Source: Isoetes taiwanensis (lineage: Eukaryota; Streptophyta; Lycopodiopsida; Isoetales; Isoetaceae). Taken from it: a stretch of 64,000 nt of DNA. The stretch covers positions 15,003,760 to 15,067,759 of the forward strand of contig JAJEKV010000021.1 of NCBI GenBank assembly GCA_021234155.1, read 5' to 3'. The notes below the pieces were generated by a model, which worked only from the letters and a program-made list of their open reading frames with translations, ran no database searches and had not been told where the DNA came from. Below are positions 20,480 to 64,000 of this stretch, piece after piece. Both the position numbers and the translations under genes were made by a program. Position 1 is the stretch's first letter; each line of letters begins with the position of its first letter.

Positions 20480-21870
20480 TCCGGATGGTGTCTTGGAACC
20501 GCCGGGCTCGGCAGAAAAGTACAGAGTCTCAACCTATTGCACCTGATATGGATCTCTCATTTTCTCATGGAAACATGGAGCATGCAGGTACGTGACTCAC
20601 CGTGACTCCTCCCAGTTATCTGCGATTTCTGTTCAATGAGTGCACAGTGCTGCAGGGCATGGGCTGGGTTGCCCGCTACTACCGCAACCTGAGGCACCCG
20701 GCCTCGCACAAAATGCATTGTGTACAATCGCTACTTGTGGGTGTATGCGGCAAAGATGACAAAGGGCTTACACTCTCTCATAGCAAAGATACATTTCCAC
20801 ATGCCCAGAGCAACTTTTTATAACACTCATTCAGATGTGGATCGATTGAGCCTTATGTCGATCTATATGATGACATATAGCAGCACAAACACAAGTGTAT
20901 ATGTTGTTTCATGACTTTAATGCACGCACAGAGCCGAAAGCAAGTTCCAAAAATTTGAGCCCCGCAGAGGACGCCTTGCAGCTTGAACCCCACAGAGGTG
21001 GGCTGGTCAAGGATATCGATGATAGCCATATTTTGGCGCCATGGCGTGCGCTTTGCCGCGGCCGGGTAGTATCTTGACCTCGGGTTATCCGTGAATGGTT
21101 GGTGCAATGGCCGCCTTCCAAATGGCCGCGACTTCAGAGACGTGGAGAACCAAGGGGCCTGGGCAGGTGGATTATCTCGCCGGTTGAGGAATCCGGTCCG
21201 CGACCAATACTCATTTTCCATCTGGATGTGGCGACTCCTGACGCAGGAAGTAGACTCACCACCTACTCGCTCGCATCTCCAAAGGAAGCTCCCCTGCACC
21301 TACCGCCAACACACCGTGCCCCCAGCCTCGCCTCGACTACGCACTGCAGGACCTAATATGCCCACCGCTGAGCATGATCTCAAGGATCAGCTTAACTCCC
21401 CACACTTCAAGAACACCGGCCACCTGACTCCACCGCTTTCCTCGACGCAATAAGCAGAAAAGATGCTTGGGAGATACTGCCACCAAGAAGCCTCGCATAA
21501 CTACCACCTTCCCCAGATTAGATGATGATGATGAGTGCTCGAGCTCAAACGCGATACCCGCAAGTCATCGATCCCATCTCTCCATACGTGTCAGCTTACC
21601 AATACCGTTTCCTTTCAAGAACAAGAAGGCCGATACCTCGCAGAGCATCAAGAATAGATAAGCTTCTGGTCTCCGGACCTACACCCCAGACATTCCCCGA
21701 GAAGGGTTCTTGAGCAAGCCCGCATGTGCCCCACAGGAACATCACCTCGAGCAATGGGTACAAGATTGCAATGTACCAGAGGACCCGGCCGGGGGTTTCC
21801 GTGCGCAACTGCCCTCCACAGATATGTGGCATGGCTCGGGTTATCGCTGCAGGGGATGTCATCATGGGCC
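20480..21870 (+). pseudogene. LINE ORF2 N-terminal region: probable endonuclease and linker
   Basis: M-V-S-W-N at 20,485-20,499, followed by an R/G-rich segment, resembles the 'LSWNVRGLG' start of AP-type endonucleases of plant LINEs. That enzyme nicks target DNA to start target-primed reverse transcription. The later catalytic residues cannot be read. At 21,621-21,660 the frame gives K-K-A-D-T-S-Q-S-I-K-N-R, and the mirrored copy at 63,497-63,545 reads K-K-A-D plus K-N-R on the opposite strand. Two noisy readings agreeing on a frame supports real coding here. The stretch leads directly into the RT domain. Confidence 0.5.
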
Positions 21871-22700
21871 TACAAATTTAGCTAATGGGAAGGCAAGCAG
21901 ATTTAGATGGCATGCAGCAGAGTTTTCTCCAATGGCTGGCTTCTCCATCGTGCCCGTTTCACGCATTGTTCAATAAAAGCATTGGCGGTAGCTTCCCTAC
22001 GCAATGGACCACTAGTAGAGTAAAGGCCTATATACAAAGCGGGACCCTCAATAAACCGCCAACTAATGCGACTACATATTATGGTCAGCCTTCTTTGCAA
22101 AACTGCTATCGCATCCTTTGAGCAAATGGCTACTGGCGGGGCAAGAGGAAACGAGGTGCGAGTTTCACACAGGCGGTGTTTTCGCCCGCATTATCTCCAC
22201 TATTGATCATATCTTCACTCGCATTACATTGATTGAAGATAGCAGAATTGCCGCAGAACCTGCATTGTTGTTTCGCGGATTTTGCAAAGGCATTCGACAC
22301 AGCATCTCCGCAATAAGCTATGGACAGATTATAAGCACCTGGGACTTCGATTCTGCGGTAATGCAGTATATAGGCCGTGACGAGGGGCTGCCTGTGCCGT
22401 GACACATCAAGCAGCAGACAAAATGGGCCACCAAGAGGGCATTGAGTGCGCCGTGGTTGCCTCCCTTCCCCACACCTTTGGCCCAGACATTGATTGAAGA
22501 TTGGCTCTTCAGCATGGAGGTGCGCAGCATATATCATGCATCACACAATCCGCAAGAACTCATATATGCTGACGATGTCAACCTCAAGGGCCTATAATTC
22601 GCAGGACATGCAACGCCACCGATGCTCTTGACACTTTTGCCAATTCACCGCATGCGAAGTTAACTTGGCCAAAACTAGGTGCCGCTTAGTTGCATCATCC
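21870..22700 (+). pseudogene. LINE reverse transcriptase domain
   Basis: N-G-K-A-S near 21,884 starts the RT-0/RT-1 region ('GKAxGxDGIPAEF' in the family). F-P-T-Q-W lies near 21,990, S-T-I-D-H-I-F-T near 22,198-22,222, and D-F-A-K-A-F-D-T in frame at 22,278-22,301, the block holding the first catalytic aspartate. P-P-R-G near 22,430 is a damaged substrate-loop box. L-I-Y-A-D-D-V-N-L contains the catalytic YADD at 22,565-22,576. The order and spacing are those of LINE ORF2 reverse transcriptases. Frame changes lie between almost every block. Confidence 0.85.
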
Positions 22701-26900: not shown

Positions 26901-29900
26901 TGGGCCAGAGAGCCGGATTTTTTAGATGGTGTTTCTTCATCATTCAAAGGACCCAAGGCTTAAAGCTTGGAGGACTGCGGTGACGCCATATGTAGCTTAG
27001 CTCCTCGTCAAAATGCCTCGAGAATTTTGGTACCGCCAAGTCATTCACAACTTCCAGAAATCATCTGTGCTTTTATGAGATATTATTGATCTCAATCTTC
27101 TAAAAATCTATAGAGAATGCTTTGATATGCTAAATAGAACTTCTAGCTTCTTACTTCTAGAGCCGGGTAAATAAACTTGGACCTTGACATTCGCTTGGAG
27201 CCTCTATACATGAGTATGATGGTGTTTTAAGTTCTTATTGCACATAATATTTCTTATTATAGCATGTAAAAGTATTCTACCACCTATACTTCAAGAGAAT
27301 CTTAAAATTGTATAGATAAATATGTCGGTTTTTGCTTATTCTATCCAACTAGAATCTTAAATTGTATAGATAAATATGTTTCTGTTTTTGCTTATTCTAT
27401 CCGTAGATCCTTTTTGTTGGGGTTTCTAGAGAACATAGCTTTTGTATTACATGAATGCAAAGATATGCTTTTGATAATTCTCACAAACACTTAATCTACT
27501 TTAGGTCAGTTGATATGTACGCCAGGACTTTGCATTATTGACATCAGCAAAAAGAATAATATTAATTTAGCAAGATCACAATGTACTATATATAATGCAT
27601 AGAGACATGGATAATGGCAAATAAGTTAATATATTCTCCTTTCATTTCTTTTCATAGTTCTAATCAGTATAAAAGGCAATGGGTAATCGTTGATTTAACC
27701 GAAAATCCCAATGTACCTTTTTAGCCCTTGCCCCATACCGCTTTCACGCCAACAGGTAATCGACGGTCAAGTAGGTACTGGATTTCTTTCCTATCAGGAC
27801 TTTTGCTTTGTAGGTTGGATTTGAAGGAAGAATGATGGAGCAATGGAAGAGAGTACACTACCATGATACTTTCTCAAGATGGTTGCAAAAGGGAATGAAA
27901 ATGACCAATACAATGTCAAGACATAACTAGCCATGATGGCTAGTTTACTTTTTGAATACTTCTACTTTGAATATTTAGGATTGAACATAAATAAAAGATG
28001 AAACCTGACTGACCGATTGAAAACAACTAACAGCTTATTAGCTGGAAACTTGAAATAATATGCTTTGTTGCATGCATAAGATATAATTAATAAGTCATTC
28101 TTATGTACGATTATGGAATTATAAGAATATAGTTTATTTTAGTTACATGATAACATTGATGCAAAGACACCGTGAAAGGATGGTACCATCTAGGACTTAA
28201 CGGTTCTTGGTAGGTACGTATAAGACAACAAAGGGATTGACCAATGCTGATGTTTGTGCTAGTATAGACTAGTTCGCTCTGCTTTTTTAAGGATGACAAC
28301 TAGTTCATGCAACAACCCTACTAGCAATTCTAGCAATATCTGGCCTAATCCTCAAGTGAGCCTTATCATTCCATACAATAACCGAAATAGTTATATGTAT
28401 TATCTTACTAAGGTGGAAAAAAAAAGTCACATGACTTTTAGTTTTACAATGTCTTTTATTTCCAAACTAAGAGGTTGTTCAAAACTCCCGTGATTCGTAA
28501 AACTTAATATAAAGTTTGCATGACATGCATGAATGCCAAATTGTACCATTTGTACTTTGTTTTCTCAAGGGACTCCATTAATAATACAATACTAAGGAGA
28601 GAAATACCATCTGGTTCTACATGGAAAGCAAAGAAAACATACATCTATGTTTAAATTCTGGTTTTTCCATCTAGAGGAAAACTTTCGATTTTTTTTAAGT
28701 TACTTCCTAAGGTTTTAAGGGCTTCATTGCCGAAAATTTTCAGATTTTCAAGATCTAAGAAGGTTTTCATAAGATAGTTTATGGGGGTTTTTTGGCTTCC
28801 GTGATATGGGAGGCATGACTTTAATGAAATTTCAGATTAGGATGATGGAGAACGCACCGCGATGAGAGACGCGGTGGAGTAAGGAAATAGGAGGTTCTTT
28901 CCGATGCACAAGCACCGGTTCAAATATAAGCATATTTTGCCCTGGATATTATTTGCGCATACCGATCGGCTTCTAGATGTTCCATGTTTATCTAATAGTA
29001 TGGTTAGTCCCAAGAAATAGATTTTGTGGCATCCTCGAATTTTAATGCACAAAAATAAGTATGGCTTAAGCATCCTCTGACTTATTGTCTCTGACAAATT
29101 TCAGGTATTCCATGTATCTTACCCCAAATTTTTTCTTCTAAAATTATGTCTGGCCAATCTTCCTAATCTGGCGGAAGGACACCTAAATTGCTTCCTTAGA
29201 GCATATTTTCGGCGTGCATCCTATTTTTAATTTCTTCGCTTCTTCATAGGTTTTAATCAAGATACATGAATGGATATGCCTGATATCCTTCTATGTAAGC
29301 ATCATGTTCCATATTTTCAATCATAATTTTCATATTGAAGTAAACTGAGACCTTGGGGATCCAAAAATGCGCACATTAGAACGGCGAACATGATGAGCTA
29401 GCTCGAGGGCTGTAAAAGAAACCGATGTAAATGGAAAAGGAGACATAGGACAAAGGATCCGGCTTCGTTTACTCTCCAGCAAATTTTCACATTGCACTCT
29501 AGGATGTAATTTGATAAGGGCCTCAGCCATATACACTGCTTGTCTTGTACAAGGTGGATCTCACAAGGTAGATGAATGTGGGATGCCTTATATGACATAA
29601 TGATGCAAAGACATCTGCATTAGAGTGTCCAATATGTTGACCATAACTAGAAGTTGCAATTCAAGCGCTTAAGGGAGAAGTTGGAAGATTTTGACAAGAA
29701 CTATAGTTGTGTTTATATTCCGCTACACATACATATCCTCAATTCAGTTACAATTGCCTAGATTGTATATAATATACTTAATGATTTTTTTTGTTCTATT
29801 GTATCATGTGCGAGACCACAATTGCTATTTTCTTTTATGGAACAACACTTTCACTACATGAGTTCCATATTTTGCTGTATATATGTGAAGTTACTTATAG

Positions 29901-29917: not shown

Positions 29918-30805
29918 TGTGTTGTGGGCTCTAAGTAGGTAATATACGCTATGCAAGTTGAATAGCTTAGAGTGTTGGTCTCGAGCTCCCACTCATCAAG
30001 ATGCAAAGATATGGAATCAAGAAAAATTATATAATACATTGTCATTCCTCAAACTGAAAGTATTCATCAGACTTTTAGTCCTTAGCCGTTGTGTGATTAG
30101 AGAACATGGATTATTAGCTGCTAGGGATTAGGAAAACATGGATTATTAGCTATTTTATGTTGATATCCTATGCGCCGCTCGTATTAGCATCTATTTTTAC
30201 TAGTTTCATAGCTTCACTATTATGACCAAGCTTTCTCTAATCCAGAATAGAATAGAATAGAATAATATGATTTTTATCGTCCACTCTTGGTACCAACTGC
30301 CTAGGACCCAAGTAGAGATCTACATTCCAAATGACTCAAGAAGACTATATGCACCAACACATGAAAAGACTCTCTACCATTTCTAGATAATGTGATTGTG
30401 GGCTCTACAAGAGGGTATATGCTTCTATATGCAAGTTGAATAGTTGAGAGTGTTGGTTTGAGTTCCGAATTTTAACAAGATGCAAAAGATATGAATTCAA
30501 AAAGAATATATAATACATTTGTCATTCCTCAAATCCGAAAGTGTTTATCGTGATCTTTTAGTCCTAGTCAAGGTACTAGGAGAACATGGATAATTAGTCA
30601 GTTGTGATTAGAGAACATGGATTATTAGCTATTTTATGTTGATATCCTATGCTCGTATCATCTATCTATTTTAATAAAAGCTCTCAAGTAGCTTCACCAT
30701 ATGAAAGTGACCAAGCTTTTTCTAGTTCGAGAGATTTATATCCCAAATGACAAGCAAAGAAGACTATGTGCACCAACACATGTAAGACCTTTTCAACATT
30801 TCTAA
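29918..30805 (+). repeat. Tandem segmental duplication (about 0.4 kb unit)
   Basis: Two copies lie head to tail: about 29,918-30,390 and 30,391-30,805. Shared landmarks in order are TTGTGGGCTCT, ATGCAAGTTGAATAG, TAATACATTGTCATTCCTCAAA, GAGAACATGGATTATTAGC, TTTTATGTTGATATCCTATG, GACCAAGCTTT and GCACCAACACATG. The first copy is longer because it holds a 66-bp LINE-end insertion and an extra 'AACATGGATTATTAGCT' repeat. It is non-coding as far as can be seen. Confidence 0.85.
30244..30309 (-). mobile_element. 5'-truncated LINE 3' end (66 bp)
   Basis: On the minus strand this reads GGGTCCTAGG..., then GAGTGGACG, and ends in a (TTCTA)n-type tail. It matches the last 70 bases of the LINE at 23,854-23,922, which has GGGTCCTATAGG, CGTGGACG and the same tail. 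It interrupts the first copy of the tandem duplication between 'GCTTTCTCTA' and 'GAGATCTACATTCC', which are nearly adjacent in the second copy. That gives an empty site and shows a genuine insertion. Extreme 5' truncation is typical of target-primed insertion. Confidence 0.75.
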
Positions 30806-30946
30806 CCTTGGTCTAGAAATCCCAAAAAGTTGTATTGTCACATGTAAAGCTTTTATTTGATGCAACAATGACGTAGCTTCTAGGATCATATTTTCATTTT
30901 GTAGAGCTTACTTATTGTTTAATTGATGAGTATATTTAGGACAAAC

Positions 30947-31228
30947 AATGTGTATAACTAGGGGAAATAACCTTGCAATACCAATCATCAAGAAAACAAC
31001 CTTGCAACGATGACATTGCTTCAACTATAACGTTGCTTCTATGATCACATTTTCCATTTTGTTCACATGGTGTGTATAACTAGGGGAAGAGAATGTGCAT
31101 AACTAGGGAGAAACAACCATGCAACAACAATAAAAATAATCGAATGTGTATAACTAGGGGAATATAATGTGTATAACTAGGGAGAAACAACCCTACAACA
31201 ATAGTAAAAATAACCAAATGTGTATAAC
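30947..31228 (+). repeat. Irregular minisatellite with TGTGTATAACTAGGG core
   Basis: The core TGTGTATAACTAGGG (one variant TGTGCATAACTAGGG) starts at about 30,949, 31,071, 31,093, 31,144, 31,168 and 31,219. Spacers of 22 to 120 bases contain repeated 'GAAACAACC' and 'CAACAATA' words. The mirrored copy at about 56,045-56,092 retains two cores. Confidence 0.8.
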
Positions 31229-31619
31229 TAGGGAAAATGACCTTGCAACAATGATTACATTCCCATTCTATGTAGTTACGCTTATAGTTCAGATGATGTA
31301 CAAGCTAAAAACCTCAACAACATAGTCACGCCTCCCTCTTTCACTTAGAAGTGCTGAAAAGTTGCTTCAGTGCCGTCCTTGAAGTTACATGGCAAATGTC
31401 TCTCAAGGCAAATACGTATGGGGAAATAGAAAAAATGCATGAAAATAATTGCATAATGTATCATAATAGAATAGTTTTTTAACGCCCACTTTATATCTCA
31501 CTAATATCATGGACCCATACATACAAGCATAATCATTTCACTTTTACTAGATTAAAACTCCTTTGCCTCGAAGGTTTTCTGCGGAAAACTTTGCAAAGAA
31601 TGATGATACTAAATAAGCA

Positions 31620-33800
31620 GTAGATAATGACTACCGAGGGCTCAAGAATTGCAGAGTTTATCTATAACCTCAAGTATGTACAATGCCAAGTCATGCATAG
31701 ATGGTGCTCTAAGAAGTTGTGGAAGCGCGGAAATGGAACCGCGGTCAAAAATGATTCCTACTATCTCAAAAGGTGGCAACTCAAGAGTATGGCTTTCATC
31801 TCCTTCAGCCAACCTGTGAATCGCACAAAGTACATAGTCCTTCGCTTCTCGCTGCAATCATACCGCCCCCATCTACCTCAACTGTGAGACCGGGTGGGAC
31901 CCCGTATGTATCTGATGCAATAGCTACAAGCTTGTTCCCGGACAATGAAGCAAGTAACAAGCTGGGGCCCCGTGCCAAGGTGTGGGATTTATGTGTGCAT
32001 GATAATGACCTCGCCACATGGGCCAAAGTAACTGCCCCATATCTGACGAAAACTACTCATTGAGATATTGCTGCAAAGCCGTGATCGAATCGCAAGCTAA
32101 TCAGTAGTTGCTCAAGGTAATGTTCTGCAATCCGCAAACCATGTAGTGTAATGCTCTTCCACATCGCTTCAAACGCCGAGGAGATTCAAATGGCGGTAAG
32201 TGTAAGAACATGATACCTAACATCATCCATGTGGTGCACCTTGCAAATATATTGAGATGGCGCCGCGTAATGTTGAAGAGGCCAAAACTCCGCTCTCAGA
32301 AAAGAATAAAGATAGGCACCGCTGTTTTAACTCCGGCGGGCCGAAGTGAGAAAGGATCTTTTGCACTCCGCCTCCAAGCTCTCCAAGCACTAGCACTAAT
32401 GGCGTGCCCCACACTTCGTAACTATACAAAGAAACAAAGCTCTTACTCAAAGTCCTCAAACAAGTGGGCTTTCCGTATAATCACTTAATTCTCATACAAA
32501 AATAATTATGTTGTTTTGTATTGTATAGAGTGTTTCCATCCAAAGAGCCACCCGCTTGGTAATACATTGTTCCCAAAGTGTACTCTACTTTATCTCTACA
32601 CTAAGCATACTGCATATCACAACTTCCAACTTCTCATGGGCTTATCATAGTAGGTATATTGTGACGAGAAGATTGAACCGCCAAAAGCCGTCTTTTGAGA
32701 TTAAATACGTTGCACTGTTCCCTTACACAAAACTAATATGCAAGAGCATGTAAATGAAAGAAATTGCATTACTAGCAAATGCAGATAAAAGCTGAAGTGA
32801 AACATCATCAAAGATACATAAGTTGCCTAATGATATACAGCTAAAATGTGGACCCCCTCACCGCCATATGAGATTATCAAGCCATTCTTCCAATTGATCA
32901 ATGTACAAGCCAAAGTATGTAGGATAAGGGCAATCCTCGACGTAACTCCACATCATGAAGTGATTTGAGTACCCGATGCTGGAAATTTAGCAAAACTCCT
33001 TTTCATAGAAATGATAAAATCGTGATTTTGAAGATCTTAGGAACCCCAAGTGTCCGCAGAAGCTGCCAAAGGAAGCTCGCTATGGTAATGATCATCAAAA
33101 GCGTATGCAAAATCCACAAAGTATATATAGAGGTCTTGCTTTCCAAACTTCTAATTATGTTCAATAAGCATGCCGATGTGAATATGGTCTATTGTAATGG
33201 CATGGATCTAAAAGCCTCAAGGCCCCTATAAAGACGCATACCAAGATGTTCTCACTTCATGATGTCAACTTCTTCTCAAGAAGATCGGGCTAAGAGCTTG
33301 AAAATATGGATCCTACTCATGATCATGCGCGATAATTAAGGGTCATGCTTATCACATGCTTTGTAAATTGGTACCACTCCTTACCGACAAACAAGTTTCG
33401 CAAGCCTTCTTGCAAAGCTTCTCTTGATTTTAAAAGAGTAGTGATGATTGAAGCAATAGCGGACCCCCCATTTAAGCAATCTCCGCTTGCAAACCTTGAA
33501 GATCAGAGATTCTGCCATTAGATAGGATGCCACAGCCTCTTTGACTTCCCTCCTCTCGCGGAATTGAAGAATATCACCTACCAAAGGAGGCACAAAATTA
33601 AGGACCCTGTGATGATCATATAAGTGGGACCAATCGCCATCCCATTGCCGTGACATAGAAATATGTCCAAAGGTAGGAGGTGGTCGACATAATATTTTTG
33701 GCCGTAATGAGGGCTCATGTAGCAAAGTAATTCAAACATTTGCTTCTCGGCGTCAAAGAACAAAGCTGCCTCTTTAAGTGCTTCACAAAACAATTTATAA
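31620..33800 (-). pseudogene. Frameshifted protein-coding locus, ARM/HEAT-repeat-like
   Basis: On the minus strand several blocks read as helical protein. Near 33,800-33,700 lies E-A-L-K-E-A-A-L-F-F. Near 33,560 is L-V-G-D-I-L-Q-F followed by E-V-K-E-A-V-A-S, and near 33,470-33,390 A-I-A-S-I-I-T-T-L-L-K-S-R-E-A-L-Q-E-G-L-R. Near 32,975-32,870 is D-Q-L-E-E-W-L-D-N-L, and near 31,735-31,640 A-L-P-Q-L-L-R-A-P-S-M-H-D-L-A-L with V-I-D-K-L-C. The 'LxxLLxx...EVxEAxAxxL' rhythm resembles armadillo repeats, but I cannot name the protein. The mirrored copy at about 53.95-55.65 kb retains A-P-S-M-H-D-L-A-L (55,559-55,585), supporting a real sequence. It may be a gene broken only by read errors; intron structure cannot be judged. 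Confidence 0.45.
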
Positions 33801-34133
33801 TTCGAATGGCATTATGTCACAGGACCGCTCAACTATCGCTCGCAATTGTTTTTAAGCCGCCATAGCCTTCATCAAACTGTGCATTTCTAGGAAAGGATTT
33901 CCTACCAAATATGAGCAACAATGTATGCGTGTATCAAAGCAAGAGACATCATAAGTAAGCAAAGCATCAGCCAGGAAATGTCGTGATTACGCCTTGAAGA
34001 GTTGGGTAATCCAAAATACCGCAAGCCGCTAGGAGCTAATGTCCTGGTTCACATATTCAAAAGATCTAGAATAAGTCGTTTAATGCGAGGGCAGAGCCCG
34101 GATAGCAATGGGTTGAAGAGGTGGAAGTCGCTT

Positions 34134-34138
34134 ACTTT
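34134..34138. repeat. Candidate target-site duplication ACTTT (pair at 43,459-43,463)
   Basis: ACTTT abuts the outer border of the left LTR of gypsy B and again follows the right LTR at 43,459-43,463. Five bases is the normal duplication length for Ty3/gypsy integration. The left LTR border is somewhat uncertain because its last bases are noisy, so the match could be chance. Confidence 0.55.
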
Positions 34139-35946
34139 TAGCTACTTAACCAAAATTTATACCAAAATTTCCTTTATTTGTATCTGCCACATCAAACCAT
34201 CGAGTATTACGTAACAAGTAATCGGGCCCCACGAGGCTATATACATGAAAGCCACGATACAGATAACAAGATGACAACATAAGATAACTATACATTACTA
34301 ATTTATGCCCCGCCTATCACATAGCCCTCAAGACAAGCTTCCACGTGTTAATAATATGCATAAGAGTTATCCAAAGATGTCAACATCGGCAATGACCGAC
34401 GCAGTCGCGTGCGACACACACATATGGAATCCACTTCACACGCGACTCATAGCATCTCACAGCAAACACATCCCTGGCCATATCTAGACAAGATTGCCTA
34501 GAACACCACAATGTGGATCCAAAGGTAAGGGAGAAACTACAGCATCATAAGAACTTAGGTCATCGTGATCACGCATACATCCATCACCGCCCCATACCTC
34601 GCTGACGGCTTCACCTCACCGACACCAACAGCTTCTTAACTAAACGAGACCCACTCGTCTCATCATATGCATGCTTAACTCCCTTGAATAAGTACGCATT
34701 GTACTTATCCCACTATCCTAAGATACTTCACAATGGAGCACAGCTCCATAGAACTTCCGAATAAAACTACTATGGCCTGTTGACAAATACATGACCTCGT
34801 CCCATACCAAGGCCATATCCTTGTCTCACCATTATTAAATCCGAGTTCTTAGGAAAACATTTACTTGTCATATGTTCTACTCAAGAACACATCAAGAAGC
34901 TTGGTGAGGTTGCCATTTAGGCTTTATAGCTTGCTTGTTTCATCGCGAAGGCCCATACTGCCTTTAAGGTGACAACAATGAAATCCATCGCTATCCAAGC
35001 TGCTTCTGGCCTTGCCAAGTAGTACATACGTACCAAGCTTTAGAAACCAACCGGCAACAAGGAGGCCCTTATGCTTTCCAGCATCAATTAAGAACTCTCT
35101 AGCAATCCCGATGCCCTCAGATAAGTTTTATTATTTACAGTGGAATTATTCTTCGAATACCAAGTCTTCCTTCCTAAGACAAATTCCATTATGGTTAAGC
35201 ATCCTTTCCAAAGATGAAGGCTTACTACATTCCCACTCCACCAATCAATCGCTCTTCCACGTAATCCCAAACACCTCCTGAAATTGCCCGTGCTTCCTCC
35301 TTGTCCTTTTTCTAATAGCCTTTCACCGCTGGCCCACCTCTCTCTGGCCATCGTAGTCTTCTCTCACTTCCTTTCCTCAGAGTAATTCCGCCTCTCTCAG
35401 AACAAAGCCAATCTCTTAATCCACGTACCGGTGGCCTTTACACGCGGGCTTACTCACCCAAAGGGTCGTAGGTTTCTGCTTGATATGTCCGCCAGCCAAG
35501 GCCTTCCTCAGCTGCTATTGAGCAAAGAATGGTGGCATCCCCGGATGAGTGGGTGCTCACCCTTTAAAAGGTCAATGGTTTTAAACCACATTATGCTCCT
35601 TTTTACACAATGGTCATTTAACCCTTTTATAACAATGTTATAACTTTAAGAGTTATTTGACCCTAAGGCCCAATGGTAATTTACCATCCTAAATCCATTC
35701 AAGTACTGTTCTTTACATTATTTTCTATAACGTATTTAGAGCAACTACGCAACTAAATCTATCATCCATAATAGTTGCACCCCTAGTCTAGGATCTACTA
35801 GGTGCAATCTATACCCTAGGCTGTGAGAACAAATATGACTATTGCACATCTATGGCCCAAATACTATAGAATACTTATATTATGCCCAAACATTAGCATG
35901 CATGCAAAATATCCAAATGGTCTCAGAAAAATATTTAGGCATAACA
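34139..35946 (-). repeat. Gypsy B 3' LTR
   Basis: On the minus strand it begins TGTTATGCCTA at 35,946 and matches the other LTR throughout. Landmarks on the plus strand are CATCAAACCATCGAGTATTACG, GCATAAGAGTTATCCAAAG, GCAACAAGGAGGCCCTTATG, CCCAAAGGGTCGTAGG and GCCCAAACATTAGCATGCAT. Length is about 1.8 kb without the insertion seen in the 5' copy. Confidence 0.9.
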
Positions 35947-48685: not shown

Positions 48686-48700
48686 ATGATATCGGCAACT
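48686..48700 (+). other. Mirrored gypsy B primer-binding site remnant
   Basis: GATGATATCGGCA at about 48,685-48,697 corresponds to GATGGTATCGAGCC on the minus strand at 40,625-40,639, with one substitution and one deletion. Confidence 0.6.
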
Positions 48701-50339: not shown

Positions 50340-50560
50340 TGCCGGAACAAGAATGAAGGAAGCCGGATGTAGGCGCAGCCGAGGTTCCTGCTGATCATTT
50401 TGTGCGGTACGCGACAGCGAGGTATACGCTGCCGATGACTGAATGAATTTTCAGAGGATAAATATTGTTACTGTTAGTATTGCAAATGACTATCTTTACG
50501 TATATGGCTCAAAACGCGGATGAGCGCATTTGAATCATTTGAATACTGTGTGCTACGCAC
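50340..50560 (+). pseudogene. Mirrored gypsy B reverse transcriptase segment
   Basis: GGATGTAGGCGCAGCC (about 50,366), TGATCATTTTG (about 50,391), GACTGAATGAA (about 50,435), GACTATCTTTACGTATATGG (about 50,488) and GATGAGCGCATTTGAATCATTTGAA (about 50,519) follow the order of the RT sequence at 38,375-38,180 read on the minus strand. The catalytic box itself is not translatable. Confidence 0.75.
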
Positions 50561-52267
50561 CGGCGACTTGCAAGACAGCATGCAAAAAATGGCTCAGAAG
50601 TGTTCAATTTTGGCTTGCGGTGAGTATTTTGACCCTGAAGTAGGCTGTGAATCCCCGGCGAACGTAGATCTTGTTTTATTAACGCAAGAAATGTATGCAG
50701 TTAGCGCCAGTTTCTTTAATATGCTTGAACTGTGCGGAAGTTTGCTAAGACAGCTATGTTGATGAAAAACTTAATGTCGATAATGGAAAAGCGGCAATAG
50801 TATATTTGAAGGTGCCTTCGGTGCTTCAGCCTGACCGGTCGGTATGAAACATGAGATTTACGCGGTGCATACTGTTATGGTGTTATGCGAGGCTATTTGG
50901 TAGTAGCCGGCAATAACGGCATTATTCACTATGGCGGAGTGCGGCAATATTCATCATCAAAATACGGAAACACCGCAATAATGGCGGTTTATGATCTGCA
51001 TTTTAGCGGAAATTACGCAAAGCGGCAGATCAGACAAAAAGCAGATGGTGAACAACAATTTGACACTGCATGTTGAATAGAACGGGCTACATTTATAACT
51101 CTTTCTTTCAGGCCGAAATGAATAATGACAGTTCAATATTACTTTGGTGTCACATATTAAACAACGAATACCTACCAGCGGTATGCGTATCTATCCACGT
51201 TATCAGTGAACTTCACGATATCGCCAGGGCATTGTTATCGATTACGCTGTTATTTACCTTTGGCGATGTATTGGCGAATTCCATGATGCACCTTATGGCG
51301 GGCGAGAATGAAGAAAATACGCGAAGATGGCTCGAAAATGTTTTATTGACACAACGATATGTAAAGTTTGTGAAGACGACCGGCGGTTAAGCGGTGCGGC
51401 GAACTCATTGTACCGTACGCATTAGCGAGAAGGTGAAATATTCTGTAGTTGTGGCCGCGCAAATGCGCAGTGTCATTGTGAATAGGTTGACGTATGCAGC
51501 GCCTACTACGACGAAATGGCATTAACTTTGGCGTGGCTGGTACGGCATATATTTCCCTGACCGCAGTACCCAAACAGCGAATACGTATTAATTCAGCGAA
51601 GTACGTTGAAAACTGCGCTGTGATTCTCTGGTCATCACGACGAATAGGCGGCAGGTAGTCAGGTGGAGAATTATTTGAGATCTATCTCCGACGTCGGCTC
51701 GGAAGACGCCAGGCCAGCTGGGCTGCCCCACGGCTAATGAGTTCCCAACGGTACGGCAAAGTAGCGTTTGTAACTATCGACTGGGAAATCGAGACTTTGT
51801 AATAAACGTGAAGGCTATGTTACTACTATTGCTGCTTGAGCGTAGTGTTGTTTGCTGAGTTGTGTCAGTACGCTTATGGTGAGGCGAGGTCGGGCGAAAA
51901 TAAAGAGCGTCAGTACGCGAAGATGGAATATTCCGCCGACAATGATCTTCCACGCGAAAGCGGCTATTGCCGCCGTACTTCGCGAGCAAAACTCCCGAAT
52001 GCCGGTCGCAGGCTGAAATGTAGTGATGTTGCCTTCGGATGCAACTTCACCGAGGAATGTCGATTTTCCATGTGGCGATTTTGTTTGCTTCACGAGAAAA
52101 ACTGCGGTATTGTGCCTTCGAGGCTGTTAGTGAATGAAATTCTACCCTGGTATTGAATTCGGTCGTCTTGGTCGCCAAAGAGGGCTGAATGAAGGTAATG
52201 AAGCATGAACATGCCGGCGGCGTCAGCGGCCGATATTATGATGACCACGAGCGAGACGAAAATGATA

Positions 52268-53745
52268 TGTTATGCCTAAATACGGACGACTGACGGGCTA
52301 TTTTGCATGCGTATTTGGGCATAATGGGCTATGTATTTGAGCAAATAATGGCGTATTATTCACAGCACAGAGGCGTAGTGCGCCTGGCCGTCTGAGCAGA
52401 ATACAGCTTATTTATGAATGACAGGCTGGTGCGTGGTACTTTAAATAAGATTAATAATGTAAAGAGCAGCTCTTGAGCGCCCGTCAGCAACTCTTAAAAT
52501 TATAACATTGACCTCAAAGGAGTTAAAATGTTCATTGATGTACAAGGGCATGTATGGTTTAAAAACCGTGACGCACAAAGGAGTGAGCACCCCTTAGGCT
52601 CGAGGATACTCCCTGTTCTTGCAATGAGCTTTGAAACTGTGCTGGCGGCGACGTTTGCTGCCGTACAAACCTGACTTACAATTGACCAGCCGCGACTGGT
52701 ACGCTGGCACGGAAGCTGAACAAGCGTTGGCGACTGTCCCCAGAAGCGGCGCGGCGGCGAAAAAATTCGATGGCGAGGCAGCGGCTGAAAAGGGACGGAA
52801 AGGCACAGGCTTCAGGAGATATTTGGAACACGTGAAGCCGATGATGACGGTAGGAATGATCTTAACTGCTGTTGTCTTCACGACATTTGAAGAATCGTAC
52901 TGGCAAATAATAAAACTTCGAATCTGAGCATCGCGGTGCAGATTACTGAACGGATACTGGAAAAGCACTCAGAGCCTCGCTGTTGCCGATTTCTAAGCGG
53001 TACAGCCATGTACTGCGCCCCGGCGCGGCACTGAATGGCGATGATTTCGTGACGGCGCGCCCAGGCGCGTGTGGAAACTGCTGATGGCAAACAGCAAGCA
53101 ACCTGCAAAAGCGTGATATTGATTAACTTGTTTATAACAACAGTAAATGTTTCTGAAACTCCGGTTGTGGTGAAGACAGAGATATGACGCTGAGCGTGGA
53201 ACGTCATGTGTCAGCGACTCATAATGGTACGACCGAGGAAGTTCTGCTCAGGCGGTAACCATTGTGGTATCTTTAGAACCGTGCATTACAATGGCGTACT
53301 GACCAGGAGTGCTTCCGGCTGCGTATGACGGGCAGTGCGTTTGAATTGGCGGTGACAGCCGACAGTGGCCGTCGCTGTGGGCGACCAGGCAACATTCTAT
53401 TGTTTAAGTTCTTATGATACTGCTTCACTACCGGCGGTCTTCTAGGCGGCGTCTTTATCATGTCTTTGCTGGCGTCTTTGTTCAGCGTGTGACGAACCCT
53501 ATTGTGTCGCCGACGTCGATTCGGCCGCTGCGTGTTGACATCTTTATGCCAACCGCATGTTGTGGCCAACGCGTGGAAGCTGTGGAAACGCCAAGCGGCG
53601 GCGTGTATGTGAATTATCTTTATGTTGTCAATGTATACGCTATGCGTGACTTTCATATGCCAACACCGTGGAAGCGTGCTGTTGCAACCAGCTGCTCCCG
53701 ACTGATTTTGATAATGCAAATAAAATTTTGTGCTAAAACACGGTT
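52268..53745 (+). repeat. Mirrored gypsy B 3' LTR
   Basis: It starts TGTTATGCCTAAATA at 52,268, then TATTTTGCATGCG, TATTTGGGCATAAT, AATGTAAAGAGCAG, ATAACATTGACC, GGTTTAAAAACC and GAGTGAGCACCCC, all in the LTR order. It ends near 53,745; the sequence beyond it (CACCTCTTCAACCC, AACGACTTATTCT) matches the left-arm flank at 34,050-34,130. Confidence 0.85.
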
Positions 53746-53949
53746 GCGTAACTGGCGACTCACCTCTTCAACCCGACTCTGCCCCTGCGTAAACGACTTA
53801 TTCTGGGCTCTTTGAATATGAAACAGCGCAGACGCAACTCTTCAGGCGTAATGCGGCGACTGGCGATAACTGCCTTTATGATATGATACGCGCGCATGCG
53901 GTGTTGCATCGGCTGACCAGGAAAATCGCTGCAAAATGCGGTTTGATGA

Positions 53950-55650
53950 GCTGGCGACACTGGGCACAATTCGCGGCGATATTGACGCCGAATGCCGCGT
54001 AATGCCATTGAAAATTACTGAAATACGTTTTGGCGAAGGTAGCGGCGACGGCATCCGGTATTTGAATTCTTGCTTTGCATGACACCGACACCTTTGGTTT
54101 ATTTCATGAGATGACGACAATCCCGCCGTCTGAGGTCGCGCCAGTACGCCTCGCACTGGTAGTGACCATTAACTCATTCAGGAAAATCAAGAAGAACGTA
54201 TCTAATGGCAGAATAAGATTTGCAGCATTGCTGCCGCGTCATCACTATAACACAAATCAGCTTTGCAAAACTGCGGCAATGCCTGCAAAGCATGTGATAA
54301 ACATGTTCAGTATCGCATGATGCATGTTAAGTTCTCAAACTCTTAGCCCCGTCTTCTTTGAGAAAAGTTGACATCATGAAGGCACCCTCTTGTGCGTTAT
54401 GAACGACGACTTAGATAAATGCCGTTACGGTAGACCGCGCTCATGCACCAGCCAATTTATGGTCGAAGTTTGAAACAATTTCTATATATAACTTTGTGAA
54501 TTTTACGCCGCGATGCCGACTGGCGGCGCGGCGCAGGGGTTCCACAGACTCTTCAAAAATGCGTTTAAAACATGAAGAGTTTTTACTGAAATTTAGGCAT
54601 CGACCACTCAAGCTCACTTAGCGACGGCCGGTGCCCTTATCTCCGCTCTTTGGCAACACGTGATGTTGAAAATGGCGGCAATGGCGGCGTAACACTTAGG
54701 CCAGGCGACATACGCTCGTGTTTGCCCGGCATCGCTGTATCTGGCTGTTATTGCTACGCATGTTTTAATGAGGCTATCAAAAGACCAGCTGGCGATTCAA
54801 TAACTACCAAGGCAATATCCCCTATACACTGACCAGCGAAACGAAAGTTATACAAGCCAGTGTAGTAAAAGTAAATACACTTTAAGGAACAATATACCAG
54901 CGGTGGCACTCTATGCAATGCAAACAATTGGCAGCGGCGTCGTGGGCCGCGGCGAGCTTTGTAGAAGCTTTGTTTCGCTATGTTGAGAATGAGAACCTGC
55001 CGTGGCGCAGGTAACGGGGAAAACTTTGGCATCACTGCTCACTGCGACACCGGGCAAGCTGGCATTTATATTTGAAGGCGAGTTTTGGCATAACTGTGAC
55101 CGCCATGGCGCCGCTCTGTGCAGGTGCGCACCACGCTGAATGACTGTTATAACTGTTATTGCGCATGGCTCCGGCGTTTAACGATGTGAAAAACATTGCG
55201 CACCCATGTTGCCCGTTGGCTGGCGAGCACATTGCGCGATCTTTGGCTTTGCAATACTCAATGAACTGCTCGAATCGCCGGTGCGGCCCGTAATGATGCG
55301 TGTACGCGCATAAATCCGCAGCGGCACCGGGGCCCAGGCACAGCACAGCACAGAAGAATTTTAACTGGCAGCGGCTGCGTCAGTGCCCAGTCCCCAGGGC
55401 TTCACGGATGGCGCGGTGGAGTAAGGAAGCGGCACTACGGCGAACTTTATATTACTGCGATTACGGGGTATTGAATGACCATATAGCTACGAGTTGCCGC
55501 TTTGAGCTGAGTAGAAGTCATTTTGACGCCCAGCATTCCATTCGCGCTCGCAACTGCCGAGCACCATCTATGCATGACTTGGCATTGTGCGCGAGGTTAT
55601 AGACAAACATGCTGCATTCTTGAGCCTCGTCGAATCATTATCTGCCGCTT
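53950..55650 (+). pseudogene. Mirrored copy of the ARM-like locus
   Basis: CTCAAACTCTTAGCCCCGTC near 54,333 and GTTGACATCATGAAG near 54,368 match the left arm at 33,255-33,300. GCACCATCTATGCATGACTTGGCATTG at 55,560-55,586 matches 31,682-31,708 almost exactly and preserves A-P-S-M-H-D-L-A-L. Between these the sequence is too noisy to read. It is useful only as a check on the left-arm reading. Confidence 0.75.
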
Positions 55651-56044
55651 GTTGTAATAAGTTTCCTTGGCGGGCAATGCTGGTATTGAGGTGGCCGCTG
55701 GCCATTACGTATGGAATACGCCCGACTATTGATATAAGGTGAATAAAAACTGATACATTATTATGCAATTGTTACTACTCTATTTCACGCAACCATTTGC
55801 CGCTGAAGAAGACATTTGCCAGCCGCAACTTCAGGGCGGCAGCTTTTCTTGCTTCTAAGTGAGAAAGAGAGGCGGCGACTATATTGTGCAATTTTCCCAA
55901 CTTGTACACATCATCACAGGCACTATAGCATGGCCCGAATGTATCATTGTTGCAGGTCACCATTTGGTGTTGTTATGAAATTGTTCTCTAATTATACACG
56001 ACCCTGATGCCGCATTCATTATTTTATTGACCGTGCATATTGTT

Positions 56045-56092
56045 TACTTCTAGTTATGCATTCTCTTCCCCTGATTATACACCATGTGGTAA
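56045..56092 (-). repeat. Mirrored minisatellite cores
   Basis: CTAGTTATGCATTCTCTTCCCC followed by TGATTATACACCATGTGG is the reverse complement of two adjacent cores at 31,071-31,108, including the rare TGTGCATAAC variant. Confidence 0.8.
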
Positions 56093-56756
56093 AATAAATG
56101 GCGCAACGTTATGAACGAAAGCGTGTCCAGACATTTTCTTGATGATTGGCGGCCGCGGAATTACAATTCCCGCCACGCATTGTTGTCTAAATCATCAGTA
56201 AACACAATAAGTAGCTCACAAAAATAATATGATCTAAACACCGATGCATCCAATAAAAACTTTTACATATGCCTGCTGGGACTTGCACTGGGCAGGATTG
56301 AAATGTTGAGTAACACATATGGTGGTGCGCAATCTTCTTTGCTTGTCATTTGAGATAAATAGAACTAGAAAAAGCGGTCATGTTATTGCCGAAGCTTAAA
56401 AATAGATAGTATTGCGAGCGCGCAAGCCCAGCTCGGCATAAAATATCCATGTTTGCTCTGTCACAACGACTGATATCCATGTTCTCCCCAATCACAGCGA
56501 CCAAGGACTGAAAAGATGCGACAAACGCAATTTGAAAGGTATTAAACCAACGACCCCATATATTGGCACGAATTTATGCTCTTTAACAATGCGACCAAGC
56601 CAGCACTCTCACTTTATTCAACTTTTGCATAGCGACATATGCCTAACGACAAACCCTGTCGCTAAAATGTTGAGAAGCTGTGTTGATTACGCCTTTGCTT
56701 GGTCATTTGGAGATGTGGATGCTACCTTTGGTCCCCGTAACGGTTAAGGTGAAGAC

Positions 56757-56800
56757 GATAAATCATATTTTATTATTCTGTCTGATGCCGGTTGAAGCTT
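56757..56800 (+). mobile_element. Mirrored truncated LINE 3' end
   Basis: AAATCATATTTTATTATTCTGTC followed by GGTTGAAGCTTG corresponds to the minus-strand reading of 30,270-30,223: AAATCATATTATTCTATTC..., then the AAGCTTGGTC flank. Most tail units are lost. Confidence 0.7.
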
Positions 56801-59800
56801 GATGCGTATTGGCTGAAACGGCAAAACCAGATACTTTGTTACGGCATCGCCAAGGTATCGGCAGCAAAACCAGCTGGTAATCATGTTTTCTGTCTGGCGA
56901 CTAATATTTTGCTCATCGCAGCGACTGAAGTTTAAGATACGGTAGTGCACCGATTTGAGAATGACAATATGACTATATAATTTTTCTTGAATTACGCTAT
57001 GGCGCGTCTTGTTCCGAATAGGCTGTATTCAGCACTGCGTAACATATACACTGCGGCCACGGCACGCCCGAGAAAAACATAAACTTCACGCCACCTGTAG
57101 CAAAGCCTATGGAGACCGTAGCTGTCGAGAAGATGATTCCGCAAAGAGCCAGCGCGGTGTATTCACTGCACGTAAATACAACAAAAAATAAGTGAAAACA
57201 TGACCATATACAGTCTGAACGAGGCCAACAACCAGTAGGAAGTAACCGTAAAACAGCGATATGAAACACCACGGCGTCATCTTCAACTTTACCCCTTAGC
57301 GCTGGTGCAGCTTCAGTTATGATCAGCATGTTGGTTGCTCAATGCGTCTTTACGTCGATATGTCGTATGGTACATCCCGGCCATCTACCTTGTGGACTCC
57401 GCAGCGTACGAAGACTGGCGATGTATAGCGGGCCGCATCGAAGTACGGTATTGGTAGCAGATAACGGCGATCGCGTCTGTCTCCTTTCCGACTACGCCGA
57501 TTTTCTTTGCGGCCACCGGCAACCGCTCATGCCTTCGTTCTATGCTCTGCACATTTGAATCCCCAGATATCGATTTACTAATGTAGTATGGTGAAAATAT
57601 GGAACATGTTCTTACATAGAAGGACATCGGTACGCTCCGACCGTTAAAACCTATGAAACGAAGGTAAAATAAGGATGCGCATGTATCTGAAGCAATTTGT
57701 CAGCTGACCAGGAAGATTGGCCGTATAACAGAAGAAAAACTGGGGTAAAAAATCTATGGAATACCTGTGTCGGAGACAACCAGAAGGAGATGTAAGCCAC
57801 CGCATGCTTATTTTTGTGCGTGCATTCGAGGATATGCCGCAAATCCGGACCTTCGCCCGCGACCGATAAACATCACAATTAGAAAGCGTCGGTATACGAA
57901 GCAATGTTGAGCATTAACGGCTGCACATCGAAAAACATATTTCGCCGCCGATATAAGTGCATTACTCGCTCATCTAATCTGAATTTCCGATAAGTCCCAT
58001 GCTGCCTCCCATATGCAAGCAAAACATTAGGCGCTATACTATGAAAACCTTTGCGTCGCCGAAAATAAATTTCGTGTCGAAGCTGCAGAAACACCCAAAA
58101 ATCCCAAAAAACCATAGCGTCCGGAAAAACTAATTTAAACAGCAAATGTATGTTTTTCTTTTGCTTTCCGTGAACCAGATATTATTTCATAGTATTAAGC
58201 GTCGGCACAAAGGCCATGCATGTCATCAAGTATTGGTGGTGATTTGAAGCAAAAACATTGTAAACAAGTCGACTTTTAACAGTAAATGTCCATCGCTATT
58301 TGTCGATTATTGTATGGAGATGACTAATAACGGCCCGGTATTTATTACTGAGCAAGGCGATTACATGAGCTAATTGTCATCGCAAAAAAAGCGACTTCAG
58401 GCACGAGAATACTACTGCTAGCACAAACATGCGACGTGTCTTATACTGACATGCAAGCGTTAAATTTAGATATTGCCGTCTGCTGGTATGCTGCATCAAT
58501 ATTATCTGCGGCAAACCAAGCTATGTTGCTGCTAATTTCCGTATCGCGTGACATTGAAACCATAACATGCGTGCAACAACATATTGTAAATTTAAAACCA
58601 ACGCCATTTTGTATTGTTCCAGCTCGGTCGGTCGATTTTCATCACGATACATGTTCATCACAAATATTCGAAATGAAAAGAAACATTCAAAAAACAAACG
58701 CTTAAATGTGGCCGTTATATCTTGACATTGGTACAGCCCGCGCGGCAGCTATCGTAGCGTGCTCTCCATTACTCCGTCTTAACCAAATCAATGAAAAAAA
58801 GAAATGAAGAAAATCACTGGAAACCAATCGGCCAGTATGGCGATATGTCGAGCAAAATTAAAGGTACGTTGAGTTTTGGGTTAAATCATGATACCCATTG
58901 TGCTACATACTGGTAGGAAACTGGCAAAGAATGAGAGGAGAATATGATAACAGCCGTATCCAGCTGTTTCTTATGCGACCAACATAGTGCATTTGTGTTC
59001 TTCAAATTATATTACAGTCTTTGCTGATGTCGAAAACTCTGCGTCCCTGACGTCCCCTGTCGGCTAAAGCCAGGTGAGTGTTTGACGGTATCAAAAGCAT
59101 AATATTTACATTCATACCGGCTCACAAAAGCTATGTTGAAACGGCAAAAGTCTACGGGTAAACGAAACGACACCATACGGTAGACTACAGTTGAACAAAT
59201 GGCAAAAGCGACATATCTGCAATTTAATTCTCTTTGGAAGTGATGAAATCTGCAATACCTCAGCAGAAACTGACCATGTGCGGTAAGGCAAGGCACAAAT
59301 CTGCTGTGGCAAACAACTTTGATCGAGATCGAAGTTTGCTTGCGTTTCTGGAACTGAAATTATTTAACATCGCGTGCCGGAGATTGATCGGCAATAAAGC
59401 TGGATATTCTGGAAGTTATTGATGACTTATTTAGCGGGCATTTGACGTATGGCGTGCGATCTCCGAAGCGCTGGTCGGCGAAGGCGATGAAGAAACGCCA
59501 TCAAAATCCTTCTCTGGCGACAGCAGTCAACGAAATAGCGGCTTATCGACTGAAAATGAACGGCGCTAAAGATACGGCGAAGCTGTTATGCATCCCAACA
59601 AAGGCGTGAAACGCACGGAGGCGAAGAGGTGTTTCCATAACGGCCCAAAACGCTCCGTCATGTCTGTGGCTGGTGTGATATTCACTCCGTGACACCACGG
59701 CATGAGCGATCGCTAAGGCATTTCGCTCCGGCCGATGATTCGCTGTTTATGACACCGACCGTAGGCGACTTGAAATGAGCAACTGCGTCTGCTGTCGCTA

Positions 59801-61841
59801 TGAGCATTACTTGACGGCCGCAGCGCGGGTTAACTGGTAAAACCAATCCACGTTTCTGAAAGCCAATGCATATAAACCGAAGATATTATGCTGAAAAGTT
59901 GCGTACCTTTGCTGCATAATTGACACTCACATATTTGGCATGCATTTGAAATGCATAACATGTTTCATGCCAATGACCAGCAAGAAATATATAAGCATTT
60001 CGTTATTTACATGTCCCAAAATATTAATGACAACAACATTTAAAAGAAGAACGTCTTTCTAGCACCGCGGCGTCACAGCCAATCGGAAATCAATCGCGGA
60101 GTTAACACGCTCCATCAACTTTTCAAAATATTTTTGCGTAGGCCCAGCCATGCTAACATACAATATTGAGCAAATCTATGGCGACCGTAAACAGGCCTGC
60201 CCCATTGCCGCCTGGAAACAATGTAACGGCGTTATAATGACATTGAATTCAGATACTATTGTACCGCTGATTCAATCACTGACACTGGTTTAACAGGCTG
60301 CATATTAGCCTGATGGCAGGATGAGCTGGCGTACTGGCAAAGTTCGAATAAATAGTGAAAGGACACTGGCTGGTACAGCGGCCTGGCGCGATATTGACGG
60401 AATTGGCAAATGCGTCATGTTCACAGGAAATGTTAGCATATTGGATTGATAATGGCGGCGGTAAAGTCTCATATTGCTCGCTACAATGAGACGTCCCGTG
60501 AAGGCGTTCATACTGAACATTCTTTGCAACCGGCCATATTAAAACTCTGCCGCTTTACGCATGCCGGCCTAAAAATGAATGGGCACTTATGCGCGTCGAC
60601 GTATATCTTCAGCAAACTCGAAAATCATTTTGGCAATGCAATGAAGCGCCAGAACACGCACATAAACTGAGCGAGAAATGAAAATATGATTCGACCAAGA
60701 AAATGCAGCGAAGCTGAAGCGCGACACATCAATAACCCAACAGTAGCAGTCTGTATGGCTATTGTTTGACGCTAAAATAACAACGACATATTCACGCAAA
60801 AACGCAACAAAGAGATAGCGGGAATAAATACATTATCTCGAATAACAGTAAGCCAGCGACACGTCTATATAACATGACACATTTAGAAAACCAAAATAAA
60901 GACATGTGAAGTTTCTCGCCAGCGATACGTCGCTACATGTATTCGCAAAGTAAGGCAAAGCGGGCGAAAGTATTTCCAGCTATTTTAGAGCCTTCAGCAA
61001 TTTTCCCTTTCGACTGATCGCGGTTTTCAAAATGCATGGGCGATTACTGGCACGGTTTATCTTTGACAACGAAATCAAATGCTGGCAAATGGCGGTGTGT
61101 GTGGGCAACAGTAACACATCTGAAACCAGCTAATGTTCTTCAACTCCGCCTCGGTACTCAGCTTTAACACCAGCGGTATATTATACGCACGATCTTGTGC
61201 TCCAGTAAATACGCTAAATTTAAACACAAATAAAACTTTAACAAAAGCTGGAATTGCTAACGCAATGTTTCATCATTTAGCGCCAGTCACATTCTCAGGA
61301 AGCAATTAAATCGCCAAGCCAGTAGCAGTCAATATGTTGACTGCGACATTTGAAAAGTCAGAAAATACAGGTTAGTGCGGCGCTCCTGACTGTAAAGTTG
61401 ATACGCAATAACGCAATGGCGTGGTGCAATCAACACAAATTTACTAAACTTTGTAAACTTTCGGCCAGCAAAGACCGTGTTTTCACATGGGAGGACTTTC
61501 AACATATGGTGCCTCGAAGCATATTTGGCTAAAAGAGACTCTGGCTGAGGGATGGTGAAGCGATGGCTTTATTAAGTCTTGAAAGCAGACCCGTCTTTTC
61601 ATTGTCTTTGCGATTACTCAGCGAGGTAGAGGCCATATCCCGGAACAGTTGAAGCCTGGCTGGGTAGCCGAAGCGGCTTCGGCCAGAAGGTGAAGCGCGA
61701 ACTACCGGTCCAGTGCTTCCGTCTGCGTTAATTTACGACGGCTTTAACAGTGAGGATGACTACGACAGTGGTGTAATTCTGGTCATTTTGCTTATTATTG
61801 TAACTCTCTCCCAAACAATCGCTTGAAAATGAGAGAAAGCT
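56801..61841 (-). other. Mirrored AT-rich block, no genes
   Basis: By position this is the counterpart of 23.9-30.2 kb. The frames seen here are short and share no motif with known families. I found no feature that is absent from the left arm. Confidence 0.6.
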
Positions 61842-64000
61842 GGAATAGAGATAGAGATGGATTTTAATCATGATAAGATTTAAACAAAGAGAGCAACAAG
61901 CTATTAACGGCGAGGATAAAACCCCGCCACGGCGGCGGCACCAGCGATAACTGGCGGCACTATGCAATTGCATGGGGCGATTAATACGCTGCGTGGACAC
62001 AAGCGGTGCGTCCCAGCAACACACGGAGGCAACAGGCCAGCGGCGCGCCGTGACCCAATAGCGATACGCGGCGGTACCCAGCTGTGAACATATGCGTTAC
62101 CAGAATATGTTGAAGCGTCTAAAACATTCATCTGTCGTAATGGCTGGCACTTGCTCCGACTTCCGCGCCATTTCAATAGCGGCGATATGCCCCGTGCTGA
62201 AATAAACATAACGCGTTAACTATTAGTAGCGCGAGCACCTTGTGGCTGGCGATGAAGACGGCAGCGTAATGTCGACCTGCGCATCCCGTAGCGAAAATCA
62301 GGTAGTTTAAGGGTGCTGGCGATCTTTCTTTGATCGACACGGTTTATTTGCGCGCGGCGTGAGCTGTGAGCTGTCTTCGGCGGATTTCGGCGTTGAAGGC
62401 CGACTAGCATTGACGCTGAGCGGACGGCGTATCGGCCATGGCGGGCTGAAGGTAAAGCGATATGGCGTTCAATAACATGGTAAGCGATATACAGCCAGAA
62501 GATGCAGTAACGGCGAACTTTCACCGAGCCGACGGGCGCTGCGTGCGTCGGTGTTGAAAAATTCGCGGACTAAGCTCTGCCCCATACAAAATTTGTCGAT
62601 AACCCCGAAAATTTAAACTGTTGACGGGCATACAACTACACTTGCTTATTAGCTGACCATTTTGCATGGCATATAATCTTTCAGCGCGTGGCTGGCTGAT
62701 AACGCATCTAATGGTGATTGAGGCTCAATCTGAAGTGCACTGACAGGTGAGGCACCTCTGCAGTGAAACAGTGAAGGAAGAGCGAGCTGACGAGGACTGA
62801 TACGACACTGGCGGGATTGTCGCGTGCCCTGACCCAAAGCCCGCTCTGGAAGTATGAGCCGTAGTTGACATCGTCGTGCGCCTCGGTGCGGTTGTGTGAT
62901 GCGTGACATGTCTTCCAGAGAACGTCAGTAATACTTGACGAAATATTGAGGAAGAACGTACTGGCGCACTCCGGTGACGTATGCGACGAGCATACCGTCA
63001 TTGCCTCTTTACGTTACTGTCGGTGCGCGATATCCCCGCTGTGCGGTAACTTCCAGCTGGTAAATTCTTACTTTGCAAATCGCAGTACAACAATACGATT
63101 ACTGTAGGCAATTCTGCCCATCTTCCCAATCGATATTGATGGCGATGAATATGATCAATGAGATATGCGGGCGAAAACTGCGTGCGCCTCGCCCAATGAG
63201 CCCGAAGATGCCGGCTGCTGGAGAAGGCGACCATATCATGCGGTAGTTGGCGGACATGTGAGCACTCACAGTAAACTGGCGCATGCTGACGGGCTGAAAT
63301 AACGGCGAGCACCGACAGAGGCCGACATTTCAGCTTTGCGCCATCTTCTGTTGCCTTCCCGTAGCGGCGGCCAAGCCCATGTTATTTACGACAACGGCCG
63401 CTGCCCCGTGAGGCTGTGCCCGGCTGGCGAGCCATGCATCTTGTACCCTTTCGAGCGATATTCCTGTGGCTGTCGCAGCCCTTCTCCCGAAATGCTGAGA
63501 TACCCGGTCGAAGACAAACGCTCTATTCTTGACTGCTGCGGCGATATCGGCCTTCTTCGATAACGAAGAGCGGTGACAATGACGACTTTGTGGGCGAAGG
63601 ATCGATGATGGCATTTGGCTCGACGCCATCATCAACCGGCGTGAAAATGATGCGGCTTTTGAAGCGTCGGCGATGTCCGGCTGGCAGTATTCTTGAAGTG
63701 TGAGGGAAACTGGCGATCGCCGGTCATGCTCCAGCGGCTGAACCGTCACGATAGTAATCGGCGGCGAAGCTTTACGTGACCAGCGACCAGGTGGGGCTTC
63801 CGCTGAAGGCATGAGCGAGGGCGTGGTGGAGATGCCGTCGGTAATACTGTCGCGATGAAAATGTGTCAGTGCGGTCCCGGCGATAATCCACCGCAGCACT
63901 TATTCTCTGTCTGCAAATCGGCGGTGGAAAACCGGCACAATAACAGTCCAGATACTACCGACAACGGCTAACGCACTGCTGCGCAAATGTAACCTCATCG
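61842..64000 (-). mobile_element. Mirrored LINE 3' portion
   Basis: GGAATAGAGATAGAGATGG at 61,842-61,860 is the reverse of the (TTCTA)n tail at 23,901-23,922. GCAATTCTGC...ATGATCAATGAGATATGCGGGCGAAAAC at about 63,110-63,175 matches the reverse complement of 22,170-22,260, next to the D-F-A-K-A-F-D-T block of the RT. The window ends inside the ORF2 N-terminal part. Confidence 0.85.
63330..63899 (-). pseudogene. Mirrored LINE ORF2 segment open for 189 codons
   Basis: The longest open frame of the whole window. It is on the strand that corresponds to the LINE sense strand and covers the counterpart of about 21.15-21.9 kb, between endonuclease and RT. Its K-K-A-D and K-N-R residues (63,497-63,545) coincide with K-K-A-D...K-N-R at 21,621-21,660. 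Its E-H-D-x-x-x-x-x-S and L-Q-E-Y segment coincides with E-H-D-L-K-D-Q-L-N-S and H-F-K-N-T near 21,370-21,420. Much of the remaining sequence is probably distorted, so it should not be used as a protein sequence. Confidence 0.6.

Follow-up and report, generated by a model that had tools for sequence, protein, structure and literature searches.

A fold-back in a 64-kb window of putatively eukaryotic DNA and its probable origin in a nanopore read

The window, meaning the whole 64-kb stretch of DNA that was analyzed, contains an element with features of a Ty3/gypsy retrotransposon. A reverse transcriptase piece of the Ty3/gypsy type on the minus strand (38,229 to 38,441) lies between presumed LTRs and matched Pfam RVT_1 with an E value of 4.9e-7 and 30.1 bits (cut-off, 29.6), as well as the PDB entries 4ol8 (E value, 8.1e-7) and 7q5b, the Ty3 Gag-Pol (E value, 3.3e-6). 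As far as sequence likeness goes, a reverse transcriptase in this setting points to eukaryotic DNA. From its general appearance, the source may be a plant. A second piece on the minus strand (37,610 to 37,825) resembles by eye a Ty3/gypsy RNase H, and Pfam returned no match for it. The presumed LTR copies were recognized as a pair of direct repeats at 34,148 to 35,946 and 40,645 to 43,458, both placed on the minus strand, with the strand of the first assigned from the reverse transcriptase piece. The second copy includes a segment of about 1 kb (42,037 to 43,070) that has no match in the first and could be a nested insertion. Elsewhere in the window, a stretch of 4.6 kb in total (9,136 to 13,764) is flanked by direct repeats of about 150 bases that are 77% identical. 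Plus-strand pieces within this stretch resemble Ty1/copia, with a weak match to copia gag (PF14223; E value, 0.078) that falls below the cut-off and with putative reverse transcriptase-like motifs.

Few other coding features were detected. None of the five open reading frames of at least 150 amino acids matched Pfam at an E value of 0.001. Thirty further stop-free pieces were picked by eye from two lists, one of 231 pieces of at least 70 amino acids and one of 118 pieces of at least 60 amino acids in the 19.4- to 45.1-kb region; a single piece, the reverse transcriptase, reached the Pfam cut-off, and five others fell below it with E values of 0.05 to 0.1. Two of these thirty pieces contain, and one repeats, an open reading frame of at least 150 amino acids that had already been scanned, and none comes from positions 1 to 8,000. 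Neither ARAGORN nor Rfam, at its gathering threshold, identified RNA genes in the window. A blastn search of positions 30,001 to 38,000 against phage and plasmid collections gave no match, nor did one 30-base exact pattern searched against viral and prokaryote contigs.

The right-hand part of the window is a mirror copy of the sequence that precedes it. Seed chaining identified 121 exact matches of at least 11 bases that stand in strict mirror order from 21,166/63,892 inward to an apex at 45,056/45,098, with a chain score of 1476 and a total of 1594 exact bases in the 121 runs. The search used 11-base exact seeds and compared arm 1, begun either at 18,001 or at base 1, with the reverse complement of 45,076 to 64,000. 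Control chains in forward, reverse-only, and complement-only orientations scored 21 to 26, and bases 1 to 21,000 scored 34 against arm 2 and 56 against their own reverse complement. With a score of 1476 against a maximum of 44 in 20 shuffles of arm 2 (3-base blocks), the chain confirms the fold-back that an earlier note on this DNA had described, and the continuous anti-diagonal expected from that description is present, far above chance, when the window is compared with its own reverse complement. The limits of the two arms, which had been given as 21.0 to 45.07 kb and 45.08 to 64.0 kb, are corrected to 21,166 to 45,056 and 45,098 to 63,892; the share of the window accounted for in this way, put at 30%, holds (18.9 of 64 kb). 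The chain ends about 110 bases short of the window's right edge. The fold therefore reaches that edge, and its start near 21 kb is set by the window rather than by the feature, whose outer end would lie outside.

The chain scoring prefers an arm-2/arm-1 length ratio of 0.78, which was borrowed from the anchors of the earlier note. A list of exact 14-mers made without this preference extends from 22,178/63,165 to 44,962/45,176 and gives a ratio of 0.79. When bases 1 to 45,070 were compared with the reverse complement of the remaining window, 264 of 377 common 12-mers and all 16 common 20-mers fell within 150 bases of the anchor-derived line, against 0 or 1 of the 12-mers and none of the 20-mers for six control lines shifted by 1 to 3 kb. 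The 16 anchor pairs that had been reported in strict mirror order are all found no more than 19 bases from the chain. Scored singly against 200 random places in arm 2, 10 of the 16 beat all 200, and 3 were equaled or beaten by 1 or 2 places. The pairs at 40,625, 38,330, and 43,440 were weak (5, 19, and 123 random places equal or better, respectively) and, because of these poor single scores, count by position only. The chain has an anchor-free gap at 37.4 to 39.2 kb. The signal from the stretches between anchors is modest, and the case for the mirror rests on the order in which the anchors stand. Self-blastn at an E value of 1e-10 recovered the mirror only at 31.6/55.5 kb and 33.3/54.3 kb, as two short pieces, since the identity of the arms is so low that plain blastn is nearly blind to the mirror; the view that the mirror claim was mostly wrong, as blastn alone would suggest, was overturned by chaining short exact matches.

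Arm 1 (21,166 to 45,056, plus strand) is eukaryote-like, repeat-bearing, and of better quality, and arm 2 (45,098 to 63,892, minus strand) is a degraded, deletion-rich reverse complement of it. Arm 2 has about 79% of the length of arm 1 throughout, with a slope of -0.789 overall and slopes of 0.72 to 0.87 across 12 bins of 2 kb that hold 3 to 14 anchors each. The identity between arms is 0.598 overall, and the stretches between anchors agree at 0.571 versus 0.497 when shuffled. Bases without a partner number 6,503 in arm 1 and 1,407 in arm 2, and arm 2 has the higher GC content (0.469, against 0.409 in arm 1). Taken by base type, 24 to 31% of bases are unmatched in the reading direction of arm 2, with T highest and C lowest, these being rough figures from alignments of very low identity.

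The LTR copies reveal which of the arms is damaged. Within arm 1 they agree at 0.776 and 0.889 over two shared parts, with 117/114 and 18/9 one-sided bases, whereas the agreement between a copy and its mirror in arm 2 (about 52.27 to 53.74 kb for the first copy and about 46.43 to 48.68 kb for the second) is 0.589 to 0.648. Between the two mirrors, agreement is 0.574 to 0.596, versus 0.515 to 0.527 in one shuffle per part. Since the copies in arm 1 are 78 to 89% alike and their mirrors are not, the change lies nearly all on arm 2, and since the damage is not common to the two mirrors it is noise-like; an evolutionary cause would require that one arm escaped change. In comparisons of copy-specific variants between the copies (P and Q) and the mirrors (P' and Q'), P-P' scored 333.5 versus 339.0 for P-Q' and Q-Q' scored 318.5 versus 283.5 for Q-P' in the first shared part, and the corresponding values in the second part were 159.0 versus 155.5 and 188.5 versus 187.0, noise swamping the few differences in both. 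Evolutionary divergence between the arms of an old inverted duplication would account for an arm identity of just about 60%, but is highly improbable given this one-sided change beside well-matched LTR copies in the other arm. The shortening is also steady, no large insertion confined to one arm interrupts the chain across 24 kb, the unmatched share is 24 to 31% for each base type, and the collinearity of repeat DNA would be expected to be lost at such divergence.

The apex between the innermost exact anchors (45,057 to 45,097) is a TTC-rich hairpin, and its sequence at 45,060 to 45,093 is GGGTTCTTCTTCTTCTTCGCCAAGAGAAGAACCC. Folded with RNA parameters, it pairs almost up to its tip, where the predicted loop has 7 bases, and the pairing runs on into the arms. 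Template-then-complement reads are obtained from two types of library with a built-in hairpin, and the window could in principle be a PacBio read with an unrecognized SMRTbell adapter or an unsplit early nanopore 2D/1D2 read. No SMRTbell stem-loop, the mark of a missed PacBio adapter, was found at the apex: alignment with a SMRTbell adapter sequence scored 18 and 20, where its shuffles reached up to 29.5 and 30.5 and a perfect match would score 90. PacBio sequencing should not degrade one arm only. Pairing down to a predicted loop of just 7 bases likewise leaves small room for an ONT linker. A missed hairpin of either type is thus very unlikely, even though the available text of Spealman et al. 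2020 (PMC7229812) likens a loss of quality of this kind to the current uplift in 2D chemistry.

The mirror order, uniform shortening, error asymmetry, and tiny apex observed here make it probable that the window derives from a single, essentially unpolished fold-back read of eukaryotic DNA on a nanopore, or from a single-read contig. A fold-back long read had been named in the earlier note as the likeliest cause, and the asymmetry of the arms, the tiny adapter-less apex, and the published behavior of nanopores support it. At about 45,075 a tiny hairpin would connect the molecule with its own complement. This link most likely arose in library preparation, where an end may have folded back and primed itself or a hairpin may have joined the two strands. 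Arm 1, as the template half, would then have been read normally by the pore. The complement half came next; it may have paired with the strand that had already passed through and so have been drawn along more quickly, and this faster passage would have led to skipped and miscalled bases and so to the shorter, error-rich mirror copy that is arm 2. The contig was presumably never corrected by other reads, because ordinary coverage would have cleaned arm 2 under any explanation.

A long, perfect palindrome is unstable when its spacer is tiny. This bears on a further alternative, namely, that a real and recent giant palindrome exists in a eukaryotic genome and that its second arm was degraded in one nanopore read. 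Such a palindrome would have to be near-perfect, its arms at least 23.9 kb long and its loop about 7 bases, and each arm would carry a Ty3/gypsy element; we regard it as unlikely. An apex without a SMRTbell adapter is what it would produce, and the available text of PMC7229812 describes the same good-then-bad pattern at genuine inverted duplications, known as such from Illumina data, so the asymmetry of the arms cannot separate an artifact from a palindrome. However, if coverage were ordinary, reads entering from the opposite side should yield a clean arm 2, and arm 2 is unrepaired; the instability of such loci also contrasts with the regular occurrence of foldback artifacts in nanopore genomic data. 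The fold-back artifact is favored over the palindrome because arm 2 is uncorrected, foldback reads are prevalent, and near-perfect palindromes are unstable.

Two published nanopore phenomena resemble the window, each in part. According to the available text of Spealman et al. (PMC7229812), nanopore reads through inverted duplications have a low-quality region that begins at the inverted junction, the length of which correlates with that of the preceding part and is consistently shorter, and the proposed cause is re-pairing beyond the pore that pulls the strand faster. The window matches this description in that quality collapses at the junction and the second part is error-rich, lacks bases, and is shorter in step with the first, as expected of a self-complementary nanopore read. 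It differs in degree, as the preceding region is just slightly longer in a figure legend of that paper, whereas here arm 2 is 21% shorter, and in kind, as many of the duplications in that text are real and known from Illumina data, whereas nothing here supports a real locus. Fold-back reads are described by Heinz et al. 2026 (PMC12870357), in the text available from that paper, as a known nanopore artifact regularly seen in genomic data. As in those ONT foldback (duplicated inversion) reads, the second segment, here arm 2, repeats the first on the opposite strand, and little or nothing intervenes: the definition of a foldback calls for an opposite-strand segment that begins no more than 200 bases from the end of the first, and the innermost anchors are 41 bases apart, measured arm against arm rather than on a reference genome. 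Symmetry, with the apex at mid-read, also belongs to the foldback definition in this text, as does uniqueness. The available sections report no measurement of quality loss in the second half, whereas arm 2 is damaged here.

The window fits a combination of the fold-back geometry of PMC12870357 with the second-arm damage of PMC7229812, as both are represented in the text available. The raw signal of eight reads in Heinz et al. showed no notable change around the breakpoint, according to the same portion of PMC12870357, and this counts against simply merging the two phenomena. Palindromic (inverted chimeric) reads from whole-genome amplification, in the accessible part of PMC13265396, are likewise self-complementary long-read artifacts; they come from amplified DNA, whereas there is no sign of amplification for the present sample.

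The main value of the fold-back is for quality control, and its biological interest is low. About 18.8 kb of seemingly orphan sequence is accounted for as a damaged second copy, and anyone who took it for new DNA would be led to genes or organisms that do not exist; arm 2 is most likely best treated as an artifact. The statement that neither new genes nor a second organism are needed in arm 2 is supported as far as it was tested, in that 0 of 10 chosen reading-frame pieces from arm 2 reached the Pfam cut-off and two fell below it with E values of 0.051 and 0.093. The combination of one-sided loss, steady shortening, and well-matched repeats in one arm makes such contigs recognizable from sequence alone.

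Arm 1 also contains two short tandem arrays, one with a period of 56 and 5% indels (27,296 to 27,402) and one with a period of 74 and 0% indels (31,071 to 31,233), the latter of which fits fair template quality. Outside the arms, positions 1 to 8,000 have a strong negative GC skew of about -0.14 to -0.26 in 2-kb steps, and if the fold continues, the mirror of this region would fall past the window's right edge.
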